Source: Candidatus Hydrogenedentota bacterium (GTDB taxonomy: Bacteria > Hydrogenedentota > Hydrogenedentia > Hydrogenedentales > SLHB01). From it: a stretch of 64,000 nt of DNA. The notes under the pieces were generated by a model. It saw only the letters and a list, made by a program, of their open reading frames with translations. It made no database searches and was not told the origin of the DNA. Shown in pieces: positions 10,354-31,081 of this stretch. The DNA lies in the NCBI GenBank assembly GCA_020849535.1, contig JADLGB010000142.1, forward strand, positions 66,688 to 130,687. The letters are read 5' to 3'. Position numbers and translations under genes: made by a program. The first letter of the stretch is position 1. The number at the start of each line of letters is the position of its first letter.

Positions 10354-10646
10354 GGGTTCCCCGTCTTGTGCAATGGTCCGTCTCCCCTCGGATCGAGAAC
10401 GGCCTTGGACGCGCTCGTGCAACGCCATGGCGGTCCCCAACGTGCTGCCAGAGGCATTGTACAGATTGGCGGCCATCCCGCCAAGTGAGCCCATCGCGCA
10501 GTCCGCGGGGCCGATCCATCCGGACCGAGCACTGTATCCGCCATTCGCCTCTGTGTTAAGATCCGCGCGGCTAGTATGTTGATTCCTTCGAGCAGTCTCC
10601 ATTCGGGGCGCGGCACAGGAATTCCACCAGAGAACTATAGGAAGAT

Positions 10647-11270
10647 ATGGTCACATTCATTGCGGATTGGATTACATCATTCATGTCGGCTCTGGGGTAT
10701 CCGGGCCTTGTCATCATGATGGCGCTTGAGAGCATGATCGCGCCCGTGCCCTCCGAGATAGTCATGCCGTTCGCGGGGTTTCTGGTCGTGGAAGGGCAGT
10801 TCACGTTTCTTGGCGCGGCGTTGGCGTCGTCGCTGGGTACGCTGTTGGGCTCCTTGATCAGTTATTGGATGGGAAAGTATGGCGGGTATCCTCTCATCTA
10901 CCGGTACGGGAAGTATTTCTTGCTGGAGCGCGAACATCTCGAATACACCGTGTCGTGGTTCGAGAAGCGGGGCGACATCGCGGTACTCATTTGCCGTTTC
11001 ATCCCGGTGGTCAGGCATCTAATCTCGATCCCGGCCGGCGTCGGTAAGATGAACATCGTGCGTTTCTGCTTCTTTACCCTTCTCGGCGGCACGATTTGGA
11101 ACGTCATTCTGCTTTTTGCCGGCGTGAAACTCGGTCAACATTGGGACATCATCTCCAAGTACTCGCATGAACTCGACTACGTCGTCGTGGCGGTTCTGTG
11201 CGTGGTGTTTGCGTGGTGGGTCCGGAAACAGTGGAAACGGCGGGCTACCATCGCCGCAAGCAAGCCTTAG
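10647..11270 (+). CDS. DedA family membrane protein
   Basis: DedA (SNARE-associated/VTT) proteins are multi-pass inner-membrane transporters or scramblases linked to lipid carrier recycling and envelope homeostasis. The 207-residue product shows the family pattern: MALESMIAPVPSEIVMPFAGFL near the N-terminus with the conserved Glu and Pro, the re-entrant region, and FIPVVRHLISIPAG with the conserved arginine. A GGA lies shortly before ATG 10647. The DUF502 gene follows after 45 bases on the same strand and may share its transcript. Confidence 0.93.
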   Translation: MVTFIADWITSFMSALGYPGLVIMMALESMIAPVPSEIVMPFAGFLVVEGQFTFLGAALASSLGTLLGSLISYWMGKYGGYPLIYRYGKYFLLEREHLEYTVSWFEKRGDIAVLICRFIPVVRHLISIPAGVGKMNIVRFCFFTLLGGTIWNVILLFAGVKLGQHWDIISKYSHELDYVVVAVLCVVFAWWVRKQWKRRATIAASKP

Positions 11271-11315
11271 CCTTTATACTGGCGCGACCGCGGCAACCTG
11301 AGTTGGTGTGATTTT

Positions 11316-12731
11316 ATGAAGAAGTCGAAATCCAGCCGCATGAGAACCATCTTCGTGCACCGGTTGCGGACGACCATCCGCGGCTACATGCTACGTGGCA
11401 TCCTGATCGTTGTCCCTCTCGGCGTGACGGCCTATGTCCTGGCGCTGTGCTACCAGCTTACCGCGGGACACCTTGTTCCGTTCCTTCGGTTGTATACCGG
11501 CGATTTGCCCAACTACACCGTCGTGCTGCTGTCGTTGGTCTTGTTTATCGTCATTCTCTACGTCATTGGGCTTACCGCGGGCTTTGTGGTGGGCAGGCGG
11601 TTCATCGCGTTCAGCGAGAGTTTCCTGCGGCGAATTCCACTGATCAAGACCATTTACGGCGCGTCCCGGCAAGCAGTGGATGTGCTGTCCAGGCAGGACG
11701 AGGGCCCCGCGTATCAGGCCGCCGTGTTGGTGCCGTTTCCCGCACCCGAGTTGCGGACCATCGCCTTTATCACCGGCCGCTTGACCATCGAAGGTGAAGG
11801 TGAGTACTTTCGGACCTTCATTCCCACCACGCCGAATCCGACGAGCGGTTATCTGGAGATTTTCCGGCAGGACATAGTTGAATATACCACCCTGTCGGTC
11901 GAAGACGCCGCCAAGGCCGTCATGTCCGCGGGGACCCTCACGCCCGAGGAATTCTCATTCGTCGATCCTCCTGAAATGGATACGGCGTTGCCGGAAGCGC
12001 GGCGGACGGGCCTGCCCGGCGCTGCCATGCAGCAAATCCGGCCAACCAAGCCGAAGCACTCCTGGCCGGTGCGCGCGCTGCTGAAGATCCGCCGCCGGCT
12101 GATTTCCGGTCTCCTTGTCCTTGTGCCGATCGGAATCACGATCTTCATCACCAACTTTGCGTATGGTCTCACTGCGGGCCGCATCGCACCTCTCGCGCGA
12201 TGGCTGGCGGGTCCCCAGCCCACCTACGTCACCGCGGTGGTCTCGGTGATCCTGCTGATCATCTTACTGTACCTCACGGGATACGTGACGACAGCGGTTG
12301 TCGGCGCGCGTCTGGTTCGTTTGATCGAAAGCCTGATTAGCCGCCTCCCCCTGATCACGACCGTATACGGGGCCACGAAACAAATAGTCGAAACGATCGT
12401 GAAGCCCGGCTCCGGGCCCAAGTTTGAGGCTCCCGTCTTCGTCGAGTTTCCTTATCCGGGTGTTCGCGCGCTCGGCTTTATCGTGGGCAAGATGCGCGAT
12501 GCGAGCGGCAAACTGTACGTGAAGGTTTTCGTGCCTACGACGCCAAACGTCACCGTCGGCCTCTTGCAGCTCTACGAAACATCGCAGGTATCGGCATGCA
12601 GCCTCAGTCTTGAGGAAGCGATCAAGATGGCCGTCTCCTGTGGCCTCATCGGTCCGGAGACCATTACGTTGCGCCCCGTGACCGAGCTGGAGGGGTATGC
12701 GGAAGAGCCTGAGCCCCGTATCACACGCTGA
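11316..12731 (+). CDS. Tandem DUF502 membrane protein
   Basis: DUF502 proteins are about 200-residue membrane proteins of unknown function. This 471-residue product carries two copies. Copy 1 (about 22-210) has RGILIVVPLGVTAYV, IPLIKTIYGASRQAV and TFIPTTPNPTSGYLEIF; copy 2 (about 260-460) has SGLLVLVPIGITIFI, LPLITTVYGATKQIV and VFVPTTPNVTVGLLQLY. The copies align throughout but differ in sequence, so the duplication is old. Each copy has two membrane segments followed by a soluble part. An approximately 45-residue linker joins them. It is probably co-transcribed with the dedA-type gene upstream. Confidence 0.9.
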   Translation: MKKSKSSRMRTIFVHRLRTTIRGYMLRGILIVVPLGVTAYVLALCYQLTAGHLVPFLRLYTGDLPNYTVVLLSLVLFIVILYVIGLTAGFVVGRRFIAFSESFLRRIPLIKTIYGASRQAVDVLSRQDEGPAYQAAVLVPFPAPELRTIAFITGRLTIEGEGEYFRTFIPTTPNPTSGYLEIFRQDIVEYTTLSVEDAAKAVMSAGTLTPEEFSFVDPPEMDTALPEARRTGLPGAAMQQIRPTKPKHSWPVRALLKIRRRLISGLLVLVPIGITIFITNFAYGLTAGRIAPLARWLAGPQPTYVTAVVSVILLIILLYLTGYVTTAVVGARLVRLIESLISRLPLITTVYGATKQIVETIVKPGSGPKFEAPVFVEFPYPGVRALGFIVGKMRDASGKLYVKVFVPTTPNVTVGLLQLYETSQVSACSLSLEEAIKMAVSCGLIGPETITLRPVTELEGYAEEPEPRITR

Positions 12732-12841
12732 CGGCTCAGCCATCGATCCTTTCAGGTCGGGGTTCCACTGGCGAGTCGCCCGGTTCCGTGCTAGGATGTC
12801 CGCCGTAAATCCCGGGCCACGGAATACGCAGGGGATACTTC

Positions 12842-14551
12842 ATGAAACATGCAGCATTACTCGCCTTTGTCCCGTTTGCATGCATCGTTGCTGCGGCGCG
12901 TATCGGCGCGCAGGAAACACCACAGGCGGGCGGGCCCGCCGTCAAGGGCGCGATGCTTTGTCCACCCGACGACACGACGCGTTTTTACCACGCGCGCGTG
13001 ACGCTGGCGCCGGCGGAATGTGCATATGCTATCACGGAGACGTTGGTGGGCGAACGTCTGGACGTCTTCGTCGCACGGGTGAACGGCGAACTGACGCAAG
13101 TCATGCCGGATGGCCGGGTGGACCGCCACGCGAACGGAAAGATCCCCGCGGGAGTTGAGGCGGATTTTCTCGTGCGTTGCCCCTGGGAATCCGGCAAGAG
13201 CTATCCGATTACCCTCCGCGGTGCGAAGCAGGAGGGCGACACCCCGTTCACGCTGCGCGCGGAGGCACAGGCCCCGGCATCGGCTTCAGGCTTTCCGTTT
13301 CCAGGCTGGGCCGAACACCGCGTGCTCGTCTTGCGCGATGACTTCGGCATCGAGCGGAAGAACTCGCCCTATGTCATCTTCGTCTCCGATGAGGCGAGCC
13401 GCGTCGCATCGTGGGCGAAGGAGTTGCGGGTCGCCGCGTACGATCTTGCCACAGGGGCCACGCGCGAGATTCCCAGCCAAGTGTTATACGAAAAGCGCCG
13501 CTTCGACACACCGGTGCAGGAGAAGGCGTACACCACGTGTGAAGTCGCGTTTCTCGTTGATGTGCCCGCAAAAGGCAAGTCCTACTACATCCTCGCCTAC
13601 GGAAATCCCCAAGCGGAAGCGCCCTCGTACGAATCGGACCTCATCGTGTCGCAGCGCGATGATGGCGCCACGTGGATCGAGAACGAGTTCTTCGAAGCCC
13701 AGCTCGATCCGCACAACCAGAGCTTGAATGGATTCCGATCGAAGTCCTTCGGCACCGGAGACAAACGAACCTTCGGACTGCCGGAACAACCCGGCTACAC
13801 GCTACACTACAACCCCGACGTGTGGGTGAAGAACCGCTCGTGGACGCATACGAAGGGCTGGAATCCGCCGCCGCATCGCGTCATGCAACAAGGACCCGTC
13901 GCCGTGGTGTGGCGCCGCTGGGGCCACTTGCCCGAGTCGGACGAAGTCGAGGTCAACGTCACCTACCACTTCTTCAGCAAGACGCCTTACGTGCTTGTCG
14001 AGTCCACAATCGATGTCCTTGAGGATGTTGTTGTCAACGCATTGCGCAACGAAGAAGTCGTCTACATGCCCTCCACGGAAGTCGACCACGCGGGCTACCG
14101 CCGCGCCAACGGAGAGGTCGTGTACCGTCCGGTCGAGCAGGGTAAAGGATTAACACCGGGCATCGTGGACATCATCGCGGCGGAAGCGCCCTACGTGTGC
14201 CTGACGCGCGAGGCGAACAAGATGGGTCTCGCGAGCATCCGCCTGAAGCAGTTGGCGGGGACCCGAGGCGCGTGGCCGCCGGTGCTCGCATCGACGGGTA
14301 CGATCATTGCGGACTACGGCTGGAACTTCCGGTATTGGAGCCGCTCGCTCGTGTATCCGTGGGGAGACTACGTGCCGGATCATCCGGTGGTGCTCAATAC
14401 GGACACGTACTACGGCGAGAAGAGCGCCTTCTGCGTGTTTCCTTTGGGTGACGGCGAGACGCCGGAAGCACGGCTGCAGTATGTGGACGCATTGTATCGC
14501 GAACTTTCGCAGCCCATCGCTATCGACCACCAAGGGGCGGGTCCTTGGTGA
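12842..14551 (+). CDS. Large secreted protein of unknown function, possibly glycan-related
   Basis: The 569-residue protein has a signal peptide (MKHAALLAFVPFACIVAAARIGAQ) and appears all-beta. Segments such as RVLVLRDDFGIERKNSPYV, a sugar-binding-like region with WIENEFFEAQLDPHNQSLNGF, and FFSKTPYVLVESTIDVLED resemble beta-sandwich domains of polysaccharide lyases and related secreted enzymes, but I cannot assign a family. The downstream gene begins 43 bases after its stop on the same strand and encodes another large exported protein, so the two probably act on the same substrate. The start has no strong ribosome site, though GGGGATACTTC lies just before ATG 12842. Confidence 0.8.
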   Translation: MKHAALLAFVPFACIVAAARIGAQETPQAGGPAVKGAMLCPPDDTTRFYHARVTLAPAECAYAITETLVGERLDVFVARVNGELTQVMPDGRVDRHANGKIPAGVEADFLVRCPWESGKSYPITLRGAKQEGDTPFTLRAEAQAPASASGFPFPGWAEHRVLVLRDDFGIERKNSPYVIFVSDEASRVASWAKELRVAAYDLATGATREIPSQVLYEKRRFDTPVQEKAYTTCEVAFLVDVPAKGKSYYILAYGNPQAEAPSYESDLIVSQRDDGATWIENEFFEAQLDPHNQSLNGFRSKSFGTGDKRTFGLPEQPGYTLHYNPDVWVKNRSWTHTKGWNPPPHRVMQQGPVAVVWRRWGHLPESDEVEVNVTYHFFSKTPYVLVESTIDVLEDVVVNALRNEEVVYMPSTEVDHAGYRRANGEVVYRPVEQGKGLTPGIVDIIAAEAPYVCLTREANKMGLASIRLKQLAGTRGAWPPVLASTGTIIADYGWNFRYWSRSLVYPWGDYVPDHPVVLNTDTYYGEKSAFCVFPLGDGETPEARLQYVDALYRELSQPIAIDHQGAGPW

Positions 14552-14594
14552 TCGTTCTTCAGGTGATATCCGTACTCCGTTGAAAGGCCTCGAC

Positions 14595-16637
14595 ATGTTA
14601 CTTGTATGGGTGTGCCTGACCTTGTCGGCCGCGGCCGCGGAGCCGTTCCAACTTCCTGACAATTTCGATCCCGCGATCTCCATGCTGCGCGACGGGGACC
14701 GTCACTCCTCCCGGGAAGCCGCGGAACTGGCGGAGAAGCTGCTGGCGAACGGTACGCCACAGGACATCGAGACGGCGGTGAAGGTGCTCGACGCCGTCAT
14801 CGCGTGTCAGGAGCAGCGCGAGGGCGCGCGGCACCAGGGCAACTTCCTGTGGAACCGCGAGGACGAAGCCATCCGTGACCTCAACGGGGTGGAGTTTGTG
14901 TTGCGGCATCTCATTCCCATGATGATTCGCCACGGCGACCGCCTTCCGGAGGATGTACGCGCGCGGGTGCTGCGCTGCATCCGCCTCGGTGTGGACGAAG
15001 TACTGCGAATGGATGTCGCGGTGACGTATACGAATATCGCCACGATGGACTGCCTGAATTCGTGCCTGGGGGGCGAGTTATTGAACGATCCCGCCGTGGC
15101 GCAGCGCGGATATGCCAAGCTGAAGGAACTCGCTGACTTTACGGCGGCGAATGGGACCGTCTACGAATTCTACAGTCCAGGCTACACGCAGGTGACTGTC
15201 GATGCCTTGCACCGGCTCTCCTCGTTGGCGCGCGACCGGGACACGGCCGTGCGCGCACGCGAGATGCTGGCGCGGCTCGCATTGACGACGGCGCTTCACA
15301 TCTCACCTTCAACGGGTCGCCTGACGGGTCCCTTCAGCCGCGCCTACTTTGATGAAGTGATGGGCGAATCCGAATCGGAATCGGAATACCTTCGCGCGTG
15401 GGCGGCGGAAGGTGTTGTGCCTGAGTGGAGCGCGCTGGTCCTCGACCGTGCGATGCCGCTTCCAACGCAGATCGAGGAAACCAGCGCACGGGGCTGGAAC
15501 ATGAGCGCCACGACCTACCTCACAAAAGACTTCTCGTTGGGCACCGCCTCGCGCGAGGTCAGCAATCAGACCAGTGGCCTCGTCGTTCGGTATCCTGTCG
15601 CCGGGTCGAAACAACCGGGCACGGTGTTCAGCCGCTACCTGGTGAACGACACCTGGTTTGAACCGAGCGACGCGCCTGAAGAGCGCAGCTCCTTTCTCAG
15701 CCTGAGGGATATGGGCAAGCACTACGCCGTGCAGGCGGGTGCGCGCGCATTGTACGTGTGTTCGCCCCGGCAGACGGCCTATGTGGATAGCTTCGCGCCA
15801 TGCACGCGAGACTATTGGCACAGCGCCAAGGCCGCGCTTATCTGGTCGCGGCGCGATACGGTAGACGCGATCTGGGCCGGTGAGCGTCTCTTGGACTCAC
15901 TGCCGGCCGAGGTGCGGCCCGGCGAAGTAGTGGTCGTGGAATCGGGACCCGTGTACGTCGGGATTCTGCCTCTGTCGCGCACGGACCTCGGATACGGCGC
16001 GCCGCTGCGGGTGGCGGAAGCGCAGGGCATGCTCGCCTTCGAGATGTACAATTATCTCGGCGGCCCCAAGGTGCATAATGATCTTGAGCGCATGAGCCGT
16101 TTTTACCGGGGACAGCCCCAAAACGCATTCTATGTGGAGGTCGCGGAGCGAACCGCGTATCCAGACGCGCAGGCCTTTGGCAGATCGATTGCCGCGGGCG
16201 CGGTGAAGGACGAGGCCGCGCCGGAGTTCACGGTATACAACGAAGACGCCGATCGTCCGTGGTTTATCGAGTACCAGCGTGATGGCCAAACGATCGGCTT
16301 CGAAGTGGACCTCATCGACTGGACGCTCACGCGGCGCTGGACCGAGAAGGGCGATCTCGGATTCCCCATGCTTGAGTCCGCCGTGGCGCGGCAGAACGAC
16401 ACGGGGCACGTGGAAGCGGACGGCGCTGTGCTTGAATGTCTGCCCGCGCCCGCGTGGCTGTATGCGGATCCGCAACGCGATCTCTACGTGGCCGGATATC
16501 ACGGCGAGCCGGGAACGCTGACGCTCACTCTTCCCAAGGGCCGCGTGACCATCGAGAACATGGGAACCGGCACCGTAGTGTATGAAGCAGGCAAGGTGAC
16601 CATCGATGCGCTTGGAAATCCGGTGCTCAAGCAATAG
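14595..16637 (+). CDS. Secreted alpha-toroid plus beta-sandwich protein, polysaccharide-lyase-like architecture
   Basis: The 680-residue product has a short signal peptide (MLLVWVCLTLSAAAAEP). Residues about 30-270 are alpha-helical with repeated LxxLA-type helices and phrases such as YTNIATMDCLNSCLGGELL and YEFYSPGYTQVTVDALHRLS; residues about 330-670 look beta-rich. This order is that of alpha/alpha-toroid polysaccharide lyases and heparinase-like enzymes, but no catalytic motif could be fixed. The frame opens earlier (14307) in overlap with the previous gene; AAAGG seven bases before ATG 14595 and the signal peptide decide the start. It is probably in one operon with the preceding secreted protein. 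Confidence 0.82.
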   Translation: MLLVWVCLTLSAAAAEPFQLPDNFDPAISMLRDGDRHSSREAAELAEKLLANGTPQDIETAVKVLDAVIACQEQREGARHQGNFLWNREDEAIRDLNGVEFVLRHLIPMMIRHGDRLPEDVRARVLRCIRLGVDEVLRMDVAVTYTNIATMDCLNSCLGGELLNDPAVAQRGYAKLKELADFTAANGTVYEFYSPGYTQVTVDALHRLSSLARDRDTAVRAREMLARLALTTALHISPSTGRLTGPFSRAYFDEVMGESESESEYLRAWAAEGVVPEWSALVLDRAMPLPTQIEETSARGWNMSATTYLTKDFSLGTASREVSNQTSGLVVRYPVAGSKQPGTVFSRYLVNDTWFEPSDAPEERSSFLSLRDMGKHYAVQAGARALYVCSPRQTAYVDSFAPCTRDYWHSAKAALIWSRRDTVDAIWAGERLLDSLPAEVRPGEVVVVESGPVYVGILPLSRTDLGYGAPLRVAEAQGMLAFEMYNYLGGPKVHNDLERMSRFYRGQPQNAFYVEVAERTAYPDAQAFGRSIAAGAVKDEAAPEFTVYNEDADRPWFIEYQRDGQTIGFEVDLIDWTLTRRWTEKGDLGFPMLESAVARQNDTGHVEADGAVLECLPAPAWLYADPQRDLYVAGYHGEPGTLTLTLPKGRVTIENMGTGTVVYEAGKVTIDALGNPVLKQ

Positions 16638-16725
16638 ACTAAGCCGCACCTGACAATTCCGGTGTCTGCTGCAATGTCCCGTTTCGGAGTGAAAGTTCGG
16701 TGAAACGACGAGAGGAGATCCCCTC

Positions 16726-18030
16726 ATGTTCTGGAGCGATTCCCGCGTGCGAACTCTGGCCCTCGCCGCGCTACTGCTGTGCGCGGCCGTGAGCGCGCCC
16801 GCCGATATGGCCGTTGAAGAAGGCAATGGCAAGCACTGGTTTAAGGGCGTCACACATTTTCATACGCTGTGGAGCGATGGCGACGCGGCGCCTGAAGTTG
16901 CCGTCCAGTGGTACCAATCGCACGGGTACGACTTCATCTGCGTCAGCGATCACAACATCCTGCAGACCGGAGAAAAGTGGTTTCCCATTGACAAGCCGGA
17001 AGACAAGCGGCTGCCCATGGAAAAGGTCGAGGCGTTGCGCAAAGAATTTGGGCAGGACTGGGTCGTCGTTGAGCAGCGCGATGGCAAGCCGATGATGCGT
17101 TTGAAGACCCTTACAGAGCTTCAAGAGCGGTTTCAGCAGCCGGACAAATTCCTCGTTATCCCCGGCGAGGAAGTGACCGCCGAGAAGGCCGTGCACATCA
17201 ATGCGGTCAACACGCGCGAAGTCATCGTGCCGATCAAGGCGGGGACCGTCTCTGAAACGCTTCAGAAGAACCTTGACGCTATCGAAGCGCACGGCCACGA
17301 GCACAATGTGCCGCTGCTCGTCCATATCAATCATCCCAACTGGAGTTCAACGATCACCGCGGAAGAGATCGTGTCCGTCGGGGGCGAACGGTTCTTCGAG
17401 GTCTACAACGGCCACGGCGGCGTGCGGAACTGGGGCGACCCGGCAAAACACATCACGTCCACTGATCGCCTTTGGGACATCATCCTGTCGCTTCGCTTGG
17501 GGAACGCAGCCGACACCACGAAGCCGATGTATGCCGTCGCCACGGACGACGCTCACAATTGGTTCTATCAAGGTCCCGGCGAGTCGATTCCCGGTCGCGG
17601 CTGGATCATGGTGTTGGCGGAATCCTTGACAGCGGAATCCTTAATTGAAGCCTGCAAGCGTGGCGACGTCTACCCGACGTCGGGCGTGCTGTTCGACAGC
17701 ATCCGCGTCGAGAACGGCACGTTCAGTGTCGCCATCAAGGCCGAAGAAGGCGTGACCTACACGACCCAGTTCATCGGCACGCGCAAAGGGACCGACCTGC
17801 ACGGCGAGCCGGTGAAGGATGAGAACGGCAACGAGATCCGCGCGACGCACGTGTACAGCGACCAGCTAGGAACCGTCCTGCACGAGACCAGCGACAACCC
17901 CGCCGTGTACACGATCAATGGGGATGAGATGTACGTGCGCGCAAAGGTGGTCTCGTCCAAGCTCAAGAAGAATCCATTCAGGGAAGGCGACTACGAAACC
18001 GCCTGGACCCAGCCAGTGGCGGTCAAATGA
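16726..18030 (+). CDS. Exported PHP-domain metallohydrolase
   Basis: The 434-residue protein has a signal peptide ending near APADM and then a PHP (polymerase and histidinol phosphatase) domain. Metal ligands are visible: His44 and His46 in THFHTLWSDG, Asp75-His76 in VSDHNI, a glutamate in PGEEVT, histidines in HINHPNW and DAHNW. Such exported PHP proteins are probably phosphoesterases; the substrate is unknown. The C-terminal 120 residues look like a beta domain. GAGGAG lies eight bases before ATG 16726. It lies 88 bases after the lyase-like gene on the same strand and may belong to that transcription unit. Confidence 0.87.
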   Translation: MFWSDSRVRTLALAALLLCAAVSAPADMAVEEGNGKHWFKGVTHFHTLWSDGDAAPEVAVQWYQSHGYDFICVSDHNILQTGEKWFPIDKPEDKRLPMEKVEALRKEFGQDWVVVEQRDGKPMMRLKTLTELQERFQQPDKFLVIPGEEVTAEKAVHINAVNTREVIVPIKAGTVSETLQKNLDAIEAHGHEHNVPLLVHINHPNWSSTITAEEIVSVGGERFFEVYNGHGGVRNWGDPAKHITSTDRLWDIILSLRLGNAADTTKPMYAVATDDAHNWFYQGPGESIPGRGWIMVLAESLTAESLIEACKRGDVYPTSGVLFDSIRVENGTFSVAIKAEEGVTYTTQFIGTRKGTDLHGEPVKDENGNEIRATHVYSDQLGTVLHETSDNPAVYTINGDEMYVRAKVVSSKLKKNPFREGDYETAWTQPVAVK

Positions 18031-18061
18031 GGTCGGCAGACGGACGGGAGGGTTTCGTCAA

Positions 18062-19282
18062 TCAAAACATGGTGTGCTCGAGTTCGTAGAAGGATGGTGC
18101 GCGGCCAGACGGAGTGATCCTGATGAAGATGCCATCCGACAGACCAGCGCCAAACGACTCAGTAGATCCGGCAACGACGTAGCCACCTTCAGGCAGTTCC
18201 AGAACGTTAAAAGGTGTGTCGTTCTCAGGCCCCCCGATCATCGTTGACCAGACGGGCGCTCCCGTTGGGTCGAGCTTCGCGATGTACATGTCGTTCTTGG
18301 TGCACGTCCTGTCTTCGGATGTGCCCACAACGATGTACCCACCATCCGCCGTTTCGTGCCCAGCATAAGCCCGGTCGTCGTACGCGCCGCCGAGGATGCG
18401 GCTCCATTCCGTGTCATCGTCCGCATCCAGCTTGAGGACATAGATGTCGTATTCGCCCACGTCGTAGTCGTAGGTCCGGCCAGTGACAAGGCATCCGCCG
18501 TTGGAGGTCTCGGTAACAGCCGACGCAGTCGCGCTTCCACCCGCGTCATACGTCTCGCCCCAAATCTCGACGCCGTCCGCATCCGTGCGCACCACGTAGA
18601 TATCCATATGGACCGCGTCGGCGCGGATGGAATTGCCCGCGAGGAAGTAGCCACCCGTTGCGCATTGATCCATGCCATACGCGCGCTCGTCCGTGGACCA
18701 GCCGTACGTCTTGCTCCACTGCGCGCGGCCTTTCCGATTCGTCTTCACGAGGTACATGTCTGTTTGCCCGGCGCCGAAGGATTCGGTGTAGCCCCCAAGC
18801 GCGAACCCACCGTCGAACGCCGATTCAATGTCGAATACCTTCTCGCCCTCCGGGCCGCCGTACGTTCTGCTCCAGTCCTTGTTGCCTGCAGCATCCGTCT
18901 TGACGAGGTACATGTCGGTATCCCCCGCCCCAAACGTGGTGGTGAATCCGGCGATCAGAAAGCCCCCGTCGGGTGTCTCGAGCACAGGCTCTCCGTCCTC
19001 TCTCAGGATTCCGCCAAACGTGTTACTCCAGACTTCATTGCCAAGGTTGTCTGTCTTGACGATGTAGAAGTCCCGGCCGCCTGCGCCCGCGGAGTCCGTC
19101 GTGCCTCCAAGCAGAAACCCGCCATCATGCGTCCGCGTGAGCCCCGGCAACTCATCCACGCCCACGGCTCCGTACGTTTTCACCCACGTAACATATTCCA
19201 CACCCGGACATCCCAGCGATAGCACCATCGCCGCGACTGCGGCCCCGAGAACAGCCGCTTTCCTGTCTCGCCCGTGCCACAT
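18062..19282 (-). CDS. Lipoprotein with seven beta-propeller-like repeats
   Basis: After a lipoprotein signal (lipobox Cys25, MVLSLGC) the 406-residue product consists of seven repeats of about 52 residues. Each has the pattern DGGF-hydrophobic-GG, then D-Y-hydrophobic-VKTD, G and W, ending YGG; examples are DMYLVKTDAAGNKDWSRTYGG and DIYVVRTDADG. Seven repeats suggest a closed seven-bladed propeller. Such proteins occur as surface or periplasmic proteins in many environmental bacteria, without known function. The frame opens at 19342, but GGAGGG seven bases before ATG 19282 sets the start. It lies convergent to the PHP gene and near the sialidase-like gene. Confidence 0.87.
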   Translation of the reverse strand: MWHGRDRKAAVLGAAVAAMVLSLGCPGVEYVTWVKTYGAVGVDELPGLTRTHDGGFLLGGTTDSAGAGGRDFYIVKTDNLGNEVWSNTFGGILREDGEPVLETPDGGFLIAGFTTTFGAGDTDMYLVKTDAAGNKDWSRTYGGPEGEKVFDIESAFDGGFALGGYTESFGAGQTDMYLVKTNRKGRAQWSKTYGWSTDERAYGMDQCATGGYFLAGNSIRADAVHMDIYVVRTDADGVEIWGETYDAGGSATASAVTETSNGGCLVTGRTYDYDVGEYDIYVLKLDADDDTEWSRILGGAYDDRAYAGHETADGGYIVVGTSEDRTCTKNDMYIAKLDPTGAPVWSTMIGGPENDTPFNVLELPEGGYVVAGSTESFGAGLSDGIFIRITPSGRAPSFYELEHTMF

Positions 19283-19427
19283 ACGCCGTCCCTCCGTCGA
19301 TTTGTCTCGAATGGGTGTAAGCCGCTCGACGTGAATAGGCACGGCTATCGTGACAGATAAGCAGAACGAAAACCAGCACGCGAATTGGCAGAACCTGTAC
19401 GCCGAATGCAGGCTACAATAGGCTTGG

Positions 19428-20603
19428 TTACTGGGCCGCCGGCTCTGCGCCTTCCAGAGCGAGTGACTTTAACGGAATGACCGTCATCACGCTGTGGCGC
19501 TTCTCCGAAGTGTAGATGACATACAGCGCTCCTTCGTGCTCCACCGCGCAGGGGTAGGACCACTCCGGGCCAGCCTGCAAGGCGTCTGCATAACCGTGGC
19601 GAATCTTCCACATCGCAGATAAGGCCTTTAGACCGGGGCGGCTCACGGCGATAGCCAATACCTGGCGTATGGAGCCGCGCGATTCCGGGTAGTTCCACAG
19701 TAGACAGCGCCGGCCGTCACTGAGCTGCAGCGCGAATGGCTTGCTGTCTTCCGCGGGCAGATTGTGTTGGAAAGGACCCTGCCACGTCTTGCCGAAATCG
19801 GCGCTGGTGAAAACCAGCCTCCCGCGAACGATGGCCGTGAGTTCCGGTCCGTCCAGCCAGACCGTGCTTTCGGGATAGTCTGTGTATGGCCGGGCAATCG
19901 TCTGCATCATCGGAACCACGCTCCATTCTCCATCAACGTCCCTGCCTGTCGAGATGGCGACCGCAGGAATCTCGGGAGTCGTGGCGGGCTTGGGTGTCAT
20001 GCGTCCGGCCATGACGAAGTTGCCATCCGCCATCAACAGCGGGGGACAATTCGGCAGGAACGGGCCGGCAATGTAGCCTCCCGAAATCCACCGATTGCGC
20101 AGTTCGTCGAGCGCAAAGACCTCGCAACGCGTGACAAGGTCGTGGCCGACCATGTTGGAGACATACGCGCGAAGCTTTCCTTCGTACGATAGAAACGTCA
20201 CCGGTACGTAGTAGGTCCCGGTTCCGCTGCGATCCGCGGCAATGACCTCGACCTGCGACCACGTCTTTCCCCCATCCTGCGAGCGCCGGGCGCGGATGCA
20301 CGACGAACCCTGAATCTCCCCCTTCGGGCAGTTGTACCATGCGGCAAAGAGGGTGTCCCCGTGCCAGACCACCGCGTTGTCGTGGAGAAACTGGTACTCC
20401 TCATCCGCACGGTGGACGACTACGTCGAAGGCGTTCGCGGGATATTGCAGGGTGTCTGGGATAGGTAGAGGCGCGTGCTCATCCCATAATGCGAAATCGC
20501 CAACGATCTTCGCCTGGGGCGCCGGTTCCCCGGCGGCATCAGATGTTCCGTAGAGGGCAATGATACAGACAAGGCCGGCGAATGTGAGATCTATCTTGAT
20601 CAC
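19428..20603 (-). CDS. Secreted sialidase/neuraminidase-like (BNR) protein
   Basis: The 391-residue product has a signal peptide ending around DAAGEP and a six-bladed-propeller sialidase-like body. Two Asp-box motifs (S-x-D-x-G-x-T-W) are clear: SQDGGKTW near 108 and SADFGKTW near 267. Family members either release sialic acids or other sugars from glycans, or only bind them; the full arginine triad could not be confirmed by eye. GTG 20603 is preceded by GGGAG with a six-base gap. It is upstream of the beta-propeller lipoprotein on the same strand with 145 bases between. Confidence 0.85.
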   Translation of the reverse strand: MIKIDLTFAGLVCIIALYGTSDAAGEPAPQAKIVGDFALWDEHAPLPIPDTLQYPANAFDVVVHRADEEYQFLHDNAVVWHGDTLFAAWYNCPKGEIQGSSCIRARRSQDGGKTWSQVEVIAADRSGTGTYYVPVTFLSYEGKLRAYVSNMVGHDLVTRCEVFALDELRNRWISGGYIAGPFLPNCPPLLMADGNFVMAGRMTPKPATTPEIPAVAISTGRDVDGEWSVVPMMQTIARPYTDYPESTVWLDGPELTAIVRGRLVFTSADFGKTWQGPFQHNLPAEDSKPFALQLSDGRRCLLWNYPESRGSIRQVLAIAVSRPGLKALSAMWKIRHGYADALQAGPEWSYPCAVEHEGALYVIYTSEKRHSVMTVIPLKSLALEGAEPAAQ

Positions 20604-20782
20604 TTCTCACTCCCTTTTGACACCCCGACTCGCGAAGGTATTGTTCTCCCTTCAGTGTACAGAATCCGGTGACCGGGCCGAACATACTTGCGCGGCATGG
20701 CGAAACCACCTTGGAAACGAGAACCCTGAGACAGCAAATTCGCCTGGAGTCGAACGTTACGTGTTTCGGCAACCCAGAATGG
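20604..20782. other. Intergenic stretch upstream of the sialidase-like gene
   Basis: No gene is visible here. The region holds the ribosome site of the minus-strand sialidase-like gene and then GC-rich sequence up to the 153-base inverted-repeat element. Together with that element, the dehydrogenase fragment and a promoter, it forms about 600 bases without an intact gene. Confidence 0.6.
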
Positions 20783-20935
20783 GACACAGGCGAGGGCGCC
20801 TATGCCACACGCGCTGGCCGTGCATGTGGATGCATGTTCCTTCTTCCTGCCGCCGGTTTGCCCAATGACTAGCGCAATTCGAGATGGCCAGTTCATTGGA
20901 GATAGACGTGTGGCATAGGCGCCCCCGCCTGTGTC
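20783..20935. repeat. 153-base inverted-repeat element, copy 1
   Basis: Imperfect terminal inverted repeats of 29 bases bound the element: the left arm begins GACACAGGCGAGGGCGCC and the right arm ends CGCCCCCGCCTGTGTC. The inner 95 bases have no gene. Copies with the same arms and exactly the same total length occur at 25105-25257 and 30929-31081, so this is a defined unit of MITE type. It carries several differences from the other copies in its arms. Confidence 0.85.
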
Positions 20936-20972
20936 TTTATTGGGCGCAGATTGCCCCCTCGCCATCGTGTAA

Positions 20973-21120
20973 CTATTCCACCCCCAACTCCGCGGCGAGG
21001 TCGAGGATCGTGAAGCGGCTGCGGATGTAGCGGGCGAACTTGAGGGCCTTGCGGTACTCCGCAACGGGCGCTTCCCTGTCTATTGGCGTGACCAGGCCGC
21101 CTGCAATGCAAACGCTTCTG
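20973..21120 (-). pseudogene. Duplicated 3' fragment of the glycerol-1-phosphate dehydrogenase gene
   Basis: The minus strand encodes the last roughly 48 residues of the dehydrogenase found intact at 21531-22829. The final 28 codons (from YRKALKFARYIRS to the stop) are almost identical to the intact gene, while upstream of that the match falls (AGGLVTPIDREAPVAEY against AGGPITPDEMDAPLDEY). The frame is closed by a stop not far upstream and there is no start, so it is a dead fragment. The small zinc-ribbon gene lies between fragment and intact gene. Confidence 0.85.
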
Positions 21121-21148
21121 ACTACGTATCCTGTTGCTCTGGTATAAT
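21118..21148 (+). promoter_or_regulatory. Possible promoter of the small zinc-ribbon gene
   Basis: A perfect -10 hexamer TATAAT lies at 21143-21148, with a weak -35 (CTGACT at 21118-21123, spacing 19). The start would be near 21155, about 45 bases before the ATG at 21201. The -35 is poor, so activity is uncertain. Confidence 0.4.
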
Positions 21149-21200
21149 TTCAAAGCGCGGATATGATCATCTTTGGACTTCTGGGTGGAGGAGCGTGAAC

Positions 21201-21491
21201 ATGGGCAAGTCGCGGTTGATTTCGCACGGCGTTCGTGTTGCCAGCGAAGACACCCCTGACCTGGGCGATCCAGACGTAATCCACGCTGAGTACTTCCGAA
21301 ATACCCTTAAATGCCATCACTGTGGCTATACGAACTACGCAAACTGGCATTCGGACAGCAGAACGGGAGAGGAGTTTATGAAGCCGCGGCGAAGGTGCGC
21401 CAAATGTGGCCGACTGCTCCACCCCCGGCGCGACGCAAATATCCTGACTGGGCAACGCCAGGGAAGTCCCAAGAACAGTGGCAGCAGATAG
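21201..21491 (+). CDS. Small zinc-ribbon-like protein
   Basis: A 96-residue basic protein with two CxxC knuckles (CHHC at about 39-42 and CAKC near 67-70), which together would bind one zinc ion in a zinc-ribbon or rubredoxin-like fold. I do not recognise the family. Its C-terminal third runs over the beginning of the region next to the dehydrogenase 3' end and is low complexity. GAGGAG seven bases before ATG 21201 favours this start over the GTG at 21195. It is transcribed toward the dehydrogenase gene. It could be real or a chance frame in a rearranged region. Confidence 0.5.
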   Translation: MGKSRLISHGVRVASEDTPDLGDPDVIHAEYFRNTLKCHHCGYTNYANWHSDSRTGEEFMKPRRRCAKCGRLLHPRRDANILTGQRQGSPKNSGSR

Positions 21492-21530
21492 TCGCGTCCA
21501 TCTTGCCCCTCGCTCTTCTCGGCTCCCCCG

Positions 21531-22829
21531 CTACTCCACCCCCAATTCCGCGGCGAGGTCGAGGATGGTGAAGCGGCTGCGGATGTAGCGGGCGAACTTG
21601 AGGGCCTTGTTGTACTCATCCAGTGGCGCGTCCATCTCATCAGGCGTGATGGGGCCGCCCGCGTTGCGGATGGTGTCCGCCACGAGCGTGGCAGGCAGCA
21701 GGTCGCGGCGCACGGCGTCTGCGATCTGGGGCAGGTGATCGCGGAAACGCATGATCTCGGCGCGCAGCAGGTCGCCCGGCAGCGATTTCTGGCGCCACTG
21801 GGCCAGCACTTCTCCGGCCACGGGGCCCCAGTCGGCTTCGATCCACGTTTGGACCTGCTCGTCCGTGGGCTGCACCGCAACGAGGGCGTCCGGGTCGATG
21901 GTCATGGGATTCAACGCGAGCACTTTCTCCCACAGGCGCAGGCAGTGAATGGTCGCCACGCCCACTTGCACACCGTGGAGGTCATTGGATGTGCCATACA
22001 ACGCTTGCTTCATGTCGATGTAGTGAGAAATGAGGTGTTCGCCGCCCGAGGCCGGGGCCGAAGAGCCCGCCACCAGCATGGACAAGCCGGAAAGCAGCAA
22101 CGCCTCCAACACGATGCCGGCGGCTTCTGGATCGCCTTGGCCCACGCGGCCCGCGGACTCAAGGACCTGATCAAGGATGCCCTCATAGAACCGTAGCGCG
22201 TTTTCATCGTAATACTCGCCGCGCAGGAAGTTCGCGGTGCGCCAGTCCGCGCCCGCGGAACACTTGGAGAGGAAATCCGCCACGCCCGCCGCGATCATGC
22301 GGTGCGGGGCCGCGGCAATCACAGCGGGGTCGGCAAACACGCCGAGGGCCGGCGTGCAAGGCGTCGTGCGTTTGAGCCCGTTCACTTTCACCGCAGTGAT
22401 GCCGGAGGTGTAGCCGTTCATGGACGCGGCGGTGGCAAAAGCCAGCACGGGCCGGTTGAGTTTTGTGCCCGCGTGCTTGGCAAGGTCGCAGATCGTGCCC
22501 GCGCCCACGGCCACGAGGAAATCGGAGGAAGCTCCCGCCTCCGCGACCTCATCCCCCAACTCCTCGGTTGCATCGACATGGCCGCCGCCAAGGACTTTCT
22601 CTGAGATGTTCTTGCCCCCTCGCGCGAGCGTTTCCAGCACCGGCGCGCCCGCGGCCTCGCGCGTGTTCTCATCGGACACAACGAGACAGGTGGCGCCGCA
22701 CTTCGCGCGGGCGAAATCCGCCAACGATTGCGCGGCATCAGGGCCAATGTGGCAGACTTCGATTGGCAGTCCTGGCGTTTCGGCATACGCACGCGCCAGC
22801 AAGGCGCCGCTGGGGATCTTCTCGGTCAT
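21531..22829 (-). CDS. egsA: sn-glycerol-1-phosphate dehydrogenase (AraM/EgsA-like)
   Basis: This 432-residue protein belongs to the iron/zinc alcohol dehydrogenase-like superfamily branch that reduces dihydroxyacetone phosphate to sn-glycerol 1-phosphate (archaeal EgsA, bacterial AraM). The nucleotide-binding part shows FLVAVGAGTICDLAKH; the metal ligands are the aspartate in GVADFLSK and histidines in SGGEHLISHYID and NDLHGVQVG. Length and motifs fit the bacterial AraM type. AGGAG lies six bases before ATG 22829. The enzyme would provide the archaeal-type glycerol phosphate stereoisomer; its bacterial use (lipid or wall polymer) is uncertain. Confidence 0.85.
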   Translation of the reverse strand: MTEKIPSGALLARAYAETPGLPIEVCHIGPDAAQSLADFARAKCGATCLVVSDENTREAAGAPVLETLARGGKNISEKVLGGGHVDATEELGDEVAEAGASSDFLVAVGAGTICDLAKHAGTKLNRPVLAFATAASMNGYTSGITAVKVNGLKRTTPCTPALGVFADPAVIAAAPHRMIAAGVADFLSKCSAGADWRTANFLRGEYYDENALRFYEGILDQVLESAGRVGQGDPEAAGIVLEALLLSGLSMLVAGSSAPASGGEHLISHYIDMKQALYGTSNDLHGVQVGVATIHCLRLWEKVLALNPMTIDPDALVAVQPTDEQVQTWIEADWGPVAGEVLAQWRQKSLPGDLLRAEIMRFRDHLPQIADAVRRDLLPATLVADTIRNAGGPITPDEMDAPLDEYNKALKFARYIRSRFTILDLAAELGVE

Positions 22830-23043
22830 CGTGTACTCCTATCGGAGGCGGCCGAAGAGCCGCCTCCACCCCACAGTAGCAAGTCGATGGGGCAGGCCGC
22901 CAGCGGACAATGAGCCTGCCACAGGGACGGCGCAACACCACCGTCATCCCTTGCGGATACAGCACGAACACGGTACTATACAAGGGGTGGTCATCTTGAG
23001 GAATCGTGGAGAACAGGTCGGTTTCTTTCCATACGGGGGAACT

Positions 23044-23541
23044 ATGCAGCAGAAATCAACAATCGTTATCACGCTTGTAGCTCTCGCGGCCCTCCTCGCG
23101 GCGCCTCTCGTCATTAGCCCCGTGCATAAGAATAAGCACGTAGTCCGCAGCCCGGTCTCTGAAGCCCCGCTGGAAGCAGAAACCGAGCGTGTTGCGCCTG
23201 AGGATCCTGGCGTACAGCAAATCGCCCAGGCTTCTGCAGAAAGGCGTTCCGGGGTGCCGGTGAGCGCCACGGGTACGGTAACGCGCATTCTCCCAGACGA
23301 TCTCAATCCACCCCGCCATCAGAAGTTCCTCGTGGGACTCTCGAACGGACAGACAGTGCTCATCAGCCACAATATCGATTTGGCACCAAGAATCAATGTG
23401 CTGCAACTGAACACCCCCATCGCCTTTAAGGGCGACTTTGAATGGAACGAGAAGGGCGGCGTTGTCCATTGGACCCATCACGATCCGGATGGATCGCATG
23501 AAGCCGGTTGGATCAATTACGGCGGTCAATACTATCAATAA
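23044..23541 (+). CDS. DUF3465 domain exported protein
   Basis: The 165-residue product has an N-terminal signal or anchor (TIVITLVALAALLAAPLVI) and, from about residue 80, the DUF3465 domain: GTVTRILPDD, LPPRHQKFLV-like RHQKF, ISHNIDLAPRI and VVHWTHHDPDGSHE near the end. The domain is an OB-like fold of unknown role seen in many proteobacterial and environmental exported proteins. The frame is open upstream to 22420 only because it overlaps the dehydrogenase gene; GGGGGA three bases before ATG 23044 defines the start. It is divergent from the dehydrogenase gene. Confidence 0.85.
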   Translation: MQQKSTIVITLVALAALLAAPLVISPVHKNKHVVRSPVSEAPLEAETERVAPEDPGVQQIAQASAERRSGVPVSATGTVTRILPDDLNPPRHQKFLVGLSNGQTVLISHNIDLAPRINVLQLNTPIAFKGDFEWNEKGGVVHWTHHDPDGSHEAGWINYGGQYYQ

Positions 23542-24033
23542 GCCACGCGCACGGAACGAAAGAGACTGGCTGTCACGCCGAGGCGTGACGAGCAAGGCAG
23601 TACCTGAATGCCGCCTTCCCGTTTCTCTGCGTTCCTCCGCGAACTCTGCGCCTCTGCGTTGAGGTGTATTCCAATTACGGGCGAGACGCGCGTTCCCCTT
23701 GCTGGTTTCCCGCTGTTGACCTCCTTCTTGAATCGGTGCAATCGGTGAAATCGGTGAATAGCTATCTTCGTTTGGTTGCGGCTACGCCGCGCTGAGCGAA
23801 TCTGTGCAACTTGTGGACACGCGTGTTTGGATTGCGGATTTGCCGCTGTCATTTTGCGATGTACAGGTTTCAAGTAGGACGGAATTTGTTCCCTCTCATT
23901 CAAGAAGGCGGGAATCATTCCCGCCCTACGGAGACGTTTCCCTCTTTGCGAACAGGTTTTCCTCTGTGGATTCCTCTTCGTTTGTTCGCGGCGAGCCGGT
24001 GCTGTGATACCATGGGCTGCAAATGAGGGTCGC
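23542..24033. other. Intergenic stretch with dispersed repeat fragments
   Basis: About 490 bases without a gene. It contains a string reading CGTTCCTCCGCGAACTCTGC and neighbours (about 23630-23663), a triplicated run AATCGGTGCAATCGGTGAAA (near 23733), and the GGCGGGAATCATTCCCGCC palindrome element. None has coding potential. Confidence 0.6.
23874..23929. repeat. Inverted repeat, GTAGGG-type, short copy
   Basis: Left arm 23874-23895 (GTAGGACGGAATTTGTTCCC) and right arm 23907-23929 (GGCGGGAATCATTCCCGCCC and TAC) are imperfect inverted copies, each also partly self-complementary. The same arms flank a longer loop at 38255-38411. Related elements are common in intergenic DNA of environmental bacteria. 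Confidence 0.75.
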
Positions 24034-25026
24034 ATGAAGACGCACGGTTTGAACGAAACGCACGATATTATCGTGGTGGGTGCGGGGCCTGCCGCGTTGG
24101 GGTTGCTGCACGCCGCGAAGCAAGCGGAGCTGAAGGCGATCGCCATCGACAAGGGGCCGGTATGCAGCGCCTTGTGTTCGCACCCCACCTACATGCGATG
24201 GTTCTCCACCGCTGATAAGTTGGAGCTTGCCGGGTTCCCGCTTGTGTGCACGGAGAAAAACCCCACGCGCCAAGAGTATCTCAAGTATTGTCGCGCGTTC
24301 GTGAAGTACTTCGACTTGAAGGTGGTCACGTACCGGGAAGTGATCTCGGTGCGTCCCGCCGGCGACATCTTCACGGTCATCGCGAAAGACATGTACGGCC
24401 GCGAGTTCCTTTGGGCGGCCTACAACGTGGTGATGGCCACTGGCTTCTACGACAGTCCGCGGCGCATGGGCATTCCCGGCGAAGACCTCCCCAAAGTCAC
24501 ACACCGCTTCACGGAGGCCCATTGGTACTCCGGGCAAGACGTGATGATCATCGGCGCGGGCAGTTCGGCCGCGGAGGTCGCGCTCGAACTCTGGCGCAAC
24601 GATGCCCGGGTCACGGTTGCCATGCGCGGTGACCGCTTCGAGACGAAGTACTGGATCGAGCCCGATATCGAAAACCGTATCCGCGAAGGATCGATCACAT
24701 GCTTTCGGAATGTCGAGGTCCGCGAGATTCGGCGCGATGATGTACTTTTGGAGTCGCGGGACGGTGGGTTCACGATTGTGCCCAACGACTTTGTCTTGGC
24801 GATGACCGGCTACGAGCCGGACACCTCGCTGTTGGAGGGGACCGGCGCCGAGGTCGATTCTTCGTGCGGCAAACCCGTGCTCACACCCGATTTCGAGACA
24901 AGCGTCCCCGGCCTGTATGTCGCGGGCACGCTCTGCGCGGGGCAGGAATCCAACGTGGTTTTTGTCGAAAACAGCCGCGAGCATGGACCCGCCATCGTCC
25001 GGCATATTGTGTCGAAGCGCCAGTGA
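24034..25026 (+). CDS. ypdA: YpdA-like FAD/NAD(P)-dependent disulfide reductase
   Basis: The 330-residue flavoprotein has an N-terminal FAD motif (DIIVVGAGPAALG) and a central NAD(P) motif (VMIIGAGSSAAEVAL). The flavin-disulfide active site of thioredoxin reductase is not present in the usual place; instead the pattern matches YpdA, the reductase of bacillithiol disulfide (KGPVCSALCSHPTYMRWFSTAD). Physiological thiol in this organism is unknown. The frame opens at 24004 with GTG, but ATG 24034 with GAGGG just upstream is the likelier start. A repeat-rich intergenic region follows. Confidence 0.82.
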   Translation: MKTHGLNETHDIIVVGAGPAALGLLHAAKQAELKAIAIDKGPVCSALCSHPTYMRWFSTADKLELAGFPLVCTEKNPTRQEYLKYCRAFVKYFDLKVVTYREVISVRPAGDIFTVIAKDMYGREFLWAAYNVVMATGFYDSPRRMGIPGEDLPKVTHRFTEAHWYSGQDVMIIGAGSSAAEVALELWRNDARVTVAMRGDRFETKYWIEPDIENRIREGSITCFRNVEVREIRRDDVLLESRDGGFTIVPNDFVLAMTGYEPDTSLLEGTGAEVDSSCGKPVLTPDFETSVPGLYVAGTLCAGQESNVVFVENSREHGPAIVRHIVSKRQ

Positions 25027-25104: not shown

Positions 25105-25257
25105 GACACAGGCGAGGGCGCCTGTGCCACACGCGCTTGCCCCGCATTGCGGTGTTTGTCCTCTCTTCCTGTCCTTGTTTAGCCCAGCGGCTCCAACAAA
25201 CCCGACTGCACAAAGCCTGGGAGATAGACGTGTGGCACAGGCGCCCTCGCCTGTGTC
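25105..25257. repeat. 153-base inverted-repeat element, copy 2
   Basis: Arms 25105-25133 (GACACAGGCGAGGGCGCCTG...) and 25229-25257 are near-perfect inverted copies of 29 bases. The interior is 95 bases with no gene. The total span equals that of the copies at 20783 and 30929. Confidence 0.88.
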
Positions 25258-25387
25258 TTAAAAGGCTTGCCCCGCGTTGCGGTGTTCGTCCTCTCTTCCT
25301 GTCTTTGTTCAGCCCAGCGGCTCCAACAAATCCGGCTGCACAAAGCCTGGGAGATAGACGTGTGGCACAGGCGCCCTCGCCTGTGTC
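25258..25387. repeat. Tandem partial duplicate of the 153-base element
   Basis: This 130-base unit repeats the interior and right arm of the preceding element with a few base changes (for instance CGCGTTGCGG for CGCATTGCGG) but lacks the left arm. It is joined head to tail, which suggests slippage or unequal recombination after insertion. Confidence 0.85.
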
Positions 25388-25432
25388 TTGGAATTCCAGC
25401 GGTTCACGCCTAATGCGAGAGAGAAAGATCTT

Positions 25433-30898: not shown

Positions 30899-30928
30899 CT
30901 CCGTTGCAGCTCTCTCGTACCCGATCAA

Positions 30929-31081
30929 GACACAGGCGAGGGCGCCTGTGCCACACGTCTTTTTCCAAACCATAGCTCGTTTGGAACTCTTCGAGCCTTC
31001 GAGCAGACCAAGGGCTGAAGAAAGGGAAGAACAAATTGAGGCGTGGCAAGCGCGTGTGGGACAGGCGCCCTCGCCTGTCGT
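30929..31081. repeat. 153-base inverted-repeat element, copy 3
   Basis: Arms 30929-30957 and 31053-31081 are inverted copies of the 29-base end (right arm with one or two changes). The interior matches copy 2 only when read on the opposite strand, so this copy is inserted in the reverse orientation. Length is again exactly 153 bases. Confidence 0.85.

Follow-up and report, generated by a model that had tools for sequence, protein, structure and literature searches.

How did a second copy of the 3' end of a glycerol-1-phosphate-dehydrogenase-like gene come to lie downstream of the intact gene, with a small open reading frame (ORF) between the two? The question is raised by a locus within a stretch of DNA of 64,000 nucleotides (hereafter, the window). 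The gene is on the minus strand, so that "downstream" means toward lower coordinates. Three features define the problem:

21531-22829, minus strand: glycerol-1-phosphate-dehydrogenase-like gene, intact, 432 aa (Pfam Fe-ADH_2, 6e-28; NCBIfam NF002022, 1e-57)
21531-21667, minus strand: the gene's own tail, the first copy of the repeat (direct-repeat search, codon alignment)
20973-21109, minus strand: second, untranslated copy of the tail, 83% identical, with the last 84 nt (20973-21056) 94% identical (repeat search, codon alignment, no usable start codon)

The dehydrogenase gene

Judging by its sequence, the gene product appears to be a relative of the glycerol-1-phosphate dehydrogenase family, with a score of 195.6 bits against NF002022 (E = 1e-57) that falls below the 413-bit cut-off of this family model. 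Strong matches to the gene (E of 1e-96 or better) were detected in 36 of the 59 other genomes searched (37 of 60 when its own genome is counted), and a dehydrogenase match of any kind at E <= 0.001 in 47 of the 60, again including its own. The four closest matches come from the same genus or family and are 69-75% identical. The only genome of the same genus that has the gene, G002, matches residues 1-206 only, the gene being cut by a contig end before the tail.

Two copies of the gene tail

The preliminary description had claimed that the 3' end of the dehydrogenase gene recurs about 550 bases downstream, and this is borne out: the tail forms a direct repeat of 137 nt with 83% identity at a spacing of 558, which is recovered by BLASTN with E = 2e-34 over 132 nt and ranks second-best among the direct repeats of the window. 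Comparison of the last 49 codons, copy against copy, reveals differences at 30 of 147 bases and in 20 codons, of which 6 are silent and 14 non-silent. As had also been described, and as the DNA alignment of the tails confirms, near-identity is confined to the last 28 codons (stop included), where 5 of 84 bases differ, compared to 25 of 63 upstream; the difference in rate is significant (Fisher p = 6e-7), with the p-value being optimistic because the boundary was picked by eye in the preliminary description. The last 25 sense codons contain three changes, every one of them silent. Beyond the repeat, the flanks show no homology above that of shuffled sequences: of 500 shuffles, 69 score at least as high as the best local alignment of the 100-nt 3' flanks, and 138 as high as that of the 100-nt 5' flanks. 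The frame of the fragment is interrupted by a stop ahead of the homology, and the first ATG, GTG or TTG thereafter comes four codons before the fragment's own stop; with no usable start codon in frame, the fragment is not a gene. Apart from short weak matches, the own genome contains no further copies of the tail beyond these two and none of the intervening DNA.

An assembly error that fused tails from different strains or loci is another conceivable explanation, and the genome is indeed a draft of 336 contigs from one strain. Because the copies differ at one-fifth of their bases and the flanks lack homology, we regard such an error as the least probable of the explanations considered here.

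The open reading frame between the copies

The gap between the repeats amounts to 421 bp and includes the following features:

21201-21491 (frame from 21195/21201), plus strand: small orphan ORF of 96 aa that converges with the dehydrogenase gene; zinc-ribbon-like, its two CxxC pairs being separated by 24 residues
21187-21193, plus strand: GGAGGAG, which may serve the small ORF as a ribosome-binding site (read in the sequence)
21140-21148, plus strand: TGGTATAAT, an extended -10-like box preceding the small ORF (pattern count)

The zinc-ribbon-like frame that had been reported between the copies is thus present, and the GGAGGAG ends seven bases 5' of its ATG. The promoter-like TATAAT, also reported previously, is found at 21143-21148, inside TGGTATAAT. 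TATAAT on its own occurs in the window at chance level (5 seen, 3.4 expected), and a two-hexamer promoter scan reports no sigma-70 site before the small ORF, whereas TGNTATAAT is above chance (2 seen vs 0.19 expected). No Rfam families were detected near the site, and the whole window contains one tRNA.

Profile searches with the product of the small ORF yielded weak matches, among them the HVO_0649 family (NF041911) and PHROG 6504; all Pfam and NCBIfam matches are below cut-off, and the best match in PHROGs, which gives no cut-offs, has an E-value of 0.001. Among the genomes of the phylum, the ORF was found only in its own (1 of 60 and 1 of 68 in two largely overlapping sets), and no homologues were found in phages and plasmids; for the proposed check of whether the zinc-ribbon gene always accompanies such fragments, this locus is thus the single case. 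One viral and one GTDB contig match were set aside, being confined to the surroundings of the Cys motifs (36 and 13 residues, respectively); the scans of viral and GTDB contigs need exact short peptide patterns, so that distant relatives can be missed. Of 1193 ORFs with a length of 70-130 aa, three contain two CxxC pairs; apart from the one discussed here, they look spurious by eye. The single-sequence structure model has a mean pLDDT of 52.6 and a pTM of 0.27, a low confidence that makes it too poor to show a fold. The codon usage of the ORF departs from that of the resident genes, with 40 of 1072 gene pieces scoring no higher, and its GC content is 57%, compared to a gene mean of 61% (127 of 1072 gene pieces are as low). 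Its coding score is matched or exceeded by 31 of the 113 small ORFs in intergenic DNA and by 200 of the 549 shadow ones, which makes the coding test ambiguous. The unusual codon usage also fits a chance frame. Any functional tie between the small ORF and the dehydrogenase would be conjectural.

An orphan ORF with atypical codon usage and GC content is what could be expected if a piece of foreign DNA, carrying a related gene tail together with this ORF, had recombined at the conserved end of the gene and left the displaced tail behind, the replacement of the preliminary description. We nevertheless consider such an import unlikely: no donor was found in the own genome, the genomes of the phylum, phages, plasmids, or viral and GTDB contigs, and the fragment itself does not resemble a distant ortholog (see below).

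The site in other genomes

No second tail was found in any of the 36 other gene-bearing genomes among the 59 searched. In line with this, all 29 loci of relatives that were compared, as the preliminary description had proposed, show a single tail at E <= 0.001 and no such fragment; in 27 of them, the available sequence continues downstream of the gene for 1.29 kb or more. Two strong matches in the genome G019 were rejected as a second tail, both being parts of one gene. A whole second dehydrogenase gene was likewise not seen in the 36 gene-bearing genomes, with the qualification that in the sole one from the same genus the gene is cut by the contig end. Nor was any trace seen of the front part that a duplicated gene would have had. 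An intact second dehydrogenase at the position of the fragment, the case that had been singled out as pointing to simple gene decay, was accordingly not seen, but G001, the one relative found to be syntenic there, is without assembled sequence across the site. In this genome of the same genus, one contig matches positions 10532-20496 of the window at 85% identity and then ends, and another matches positions 23749-24707 at 89%, followed by different DNA; the assembled match thus skips positions 20497-23748, which contain the dehydrogenase gene, its second tail and the small ORF. There is no dehydrogenase match in G001 (81% completeness). The DNA upstream of the gene in G002 has no match to the window, and the neighbors of the dehydrogenase gene vary between genomes. 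The variable neighborhood and the different DNA of G001 beyond 23749 are points in favor of an import.

In nine relatives (loci L012, L013, L014, L016, L018, L022, L024, L026 and L030), a similar-looking hypothetical protein with an HHRGYL-like motif, recognized by eye, is encoded directly downstream of the dehydrogenase gene; it is absent in the window, and the protein of L012 has no Pfam match at E <= 0.001.

Another possible origin is an integrative element that targeted the 3' end of the gene, bringing its own copy of the tail, and was mostly deleted later, with the small ORF left over. The gene tail is indeed duplicated on both sides of inserted DNA, in the same geometry as that of prophage e14 in the icd gene of Escherichia coli (intact gene end, inserted DNA, displaced tail fragment), and the exclusively silent changes in the last 25 sense codons agree with this scenario. 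However, merely 421 bp separate the repeats, and they contain no integrase or mobility gene, the 96-aa ORF matching no integrase family in Pfam, NCBIfam or PHROGs. Furthermore, none of the five downstream proteins of relatives that were scanned (from 5 of the 27 loci; two of the five lack any Pfam match) is an integrase, and none of the relatives examined showed a tail duplication. That the DNA between the copies encodes no integrase, and that the pattern was not seen in these relatives, counts against classifying the locus as a scar of an integrative element, which we therefore consider improbable, more so than an import.

The fragment compared with the tails of relatives

The fragment and the gene were compared in stretches relative to the RFT motif with 16 of the 29 loci of relatives. 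In the stretch from -102 to -72 before the motif, the relatives are 50-80% identical to the gene and 27-50% to the fragment, the gene being the closer in 16 of 16; from -72 to -36, the same holds for 14 of the 16, the remaining two being a tie and a reversal. This proximity of the gene to the relatives upstream is as expected if the fragment drifted without constraint. From -36 to 0, the fragment is 94% identical to the gene compared to 47-72% for the relatives, and therefore ordinary conservation is no explanation for the step in identity there. In the 36 nt past the motif, the fragment-gene identity is again 94% and that between the relatives and the gene 69-86%, so that the step is weaker there. 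Taken together, these identities imply that the near-identical end is young or was homogenized lately, and that the upstream part drifted. Two features of the tails argue against an import. The upstream end of the fragment is farther than the gene from each of the 16 relatives. The run KFARYIRSRF, which is common to both tails, is complete in none of the tails of the 29 relatives, so that neither tail looks like a distant ortholog.

Other repeats in the genome

Local direct repeats were surveyed in 426,637 bases (the window and 19 fetched stretches), about 5% of the genome, and 15 pairs were found, 4 of which were aligned. Under a mechanical rule, 10 of the 15 pairs include the stop of a stop-to-stop frame at least 150 codons long. 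If, more strictly, only the longest non-overlapping ORFs with a minimum of 100 aa are considered, an ORF stop is included in 4 of the 15: the dehydrogenase tail and three pairs over frames of 123-163 aa, two in the repeat-rich stretch L052 and one in L055. Only in the dehydrogenase pair does a copy lie wholly inside the end of a longer ORF. A further pair, in L054, has a 121-nt copy, 71% identical, within a frame of 540 aa. The surveyed 5% thus does not show tail duplication to be common in this genome, although it may be so in the other 95%.

Three further features were noticed. An element of about 155 bp with inverted ends of 29 nt, which we take to be REPIN-like, occurs in the window at 20783-20937, 25105-25259, 25236-25389 and 30925-31078; its end pattern has 50 exact matches in the own genome, compared to 0 for the reversed control, and one copy of the element ends about 35 bp beyond the tail fragment. 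A second dispersed repeat, at about 23567-23817, has dozens of copies in G001, the synteny with which stops inside this repeat, at 23749. Elsewhere in the own genome (L058 9972-12658, contig C33), an ORF of 466 aa with the look of a phage or plasmid primase, as judged by eye, is flanked by two direct-repeat pairs, 84% and 95% identical.

Origin of the fragment

The existence of two copies, the mosaic distribution of their differences and the absence of such a fragment in relatives support a duplication or recombination that left a fragment behind. Here the preliminary description is supported as far as the fragment is concerned; the arrival of new DNA, its other component, is plausible, with no donor or second copy found. 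We hold, with moderate confidence, that the fragment is a non-functional, lineage-specific scar of a partial duplication, decayed in its upstream part and recently homogenized or recombined over the last 84 nt. One trait of a partial tandem duplication is present, namely, an incomplete second copy in direct orientation beside its parent. In the order of events that we infer, the end of the dehydrogenase gene would have been duplicated downstream, most simply as a tandem duplication; the front part of the duplicate would then have been lost or overwritten, and the upstream 50-60 nt of the leftover would have drifted freely. The last 84 nt would later have become nearly identical, either through gene conversion, a suggestion that derives from one sequence pair, or through a more recent crossover at this point. 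Between the copies now lies the small zinc-ribbon-like frame, whose origin is conjectural. Among the points against such a duplication scar are the following: (i) no intermediate with a whole second gene or a remnant of the front part was seen; (ii) the step in identity is weaker in the 36 nt past the RFT motif; and (iii) the all-silent changes in the last 25 sense codons could as well reflect selection on the tail to reconstitute the protein, as in an integrative element.

There is, in addition, a very improbable functional reading, in which the small gene between the near-identical 84-nt ends is a minimal exchangeable cassette, gained or lost by recombination between these ends, with the dehydrogenase always remaining intact and the gene end serving as a silent docking site. 

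Unless the small ORF proves to be gained and lost among sister strains, the arrangement is an ordinary one, with the look of a scar left by earlier DNA rearrangement and not of a working device. If sister strains without the small ORF kept one tail, this would illustrate how passenger DNA can be accommodated harmlessly at a gene end. The locus serves mostly as a worked example, as a tail fragment of this kind can pass for a pseudogene or for an attachment site.

Comparison with known systems

The product of the small ORF shares with small zinc-ribbon proteins (NF041911, PHROG 6504) the two CxxC pairs at zinc-ribbon-like spacing, but its NCBIfam and Pfam scores are far below the curated cut-offs and no homologue was found. 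The fragment as a whole resembles partial duplications of 3' gene ends with decay and conversion, in that an incomplete, untranslatable copy with mosaic identity lies beside its parent; unlike in those cases, a tandem stage with the whole gene was not seen in the relatives searched, and conversion is only what we infer here. A parallel in layout is the icd/icdC pair with prophage e14 in E. coli K-12, where, according to PMC11148124, there is likewise an intact gene end, DNA in between, and a displaced tail copy of about 50 codons. The two loci differ in what lies between the copies, a prophage in E. coli and 421 bp without an integrase here, and in the divergence of the copies: the duplicated segment of icd is 165 bp long with 12 exchanges (PMC11148124), compared to 30 differences in 147 bases for the dehydrogenase tail.
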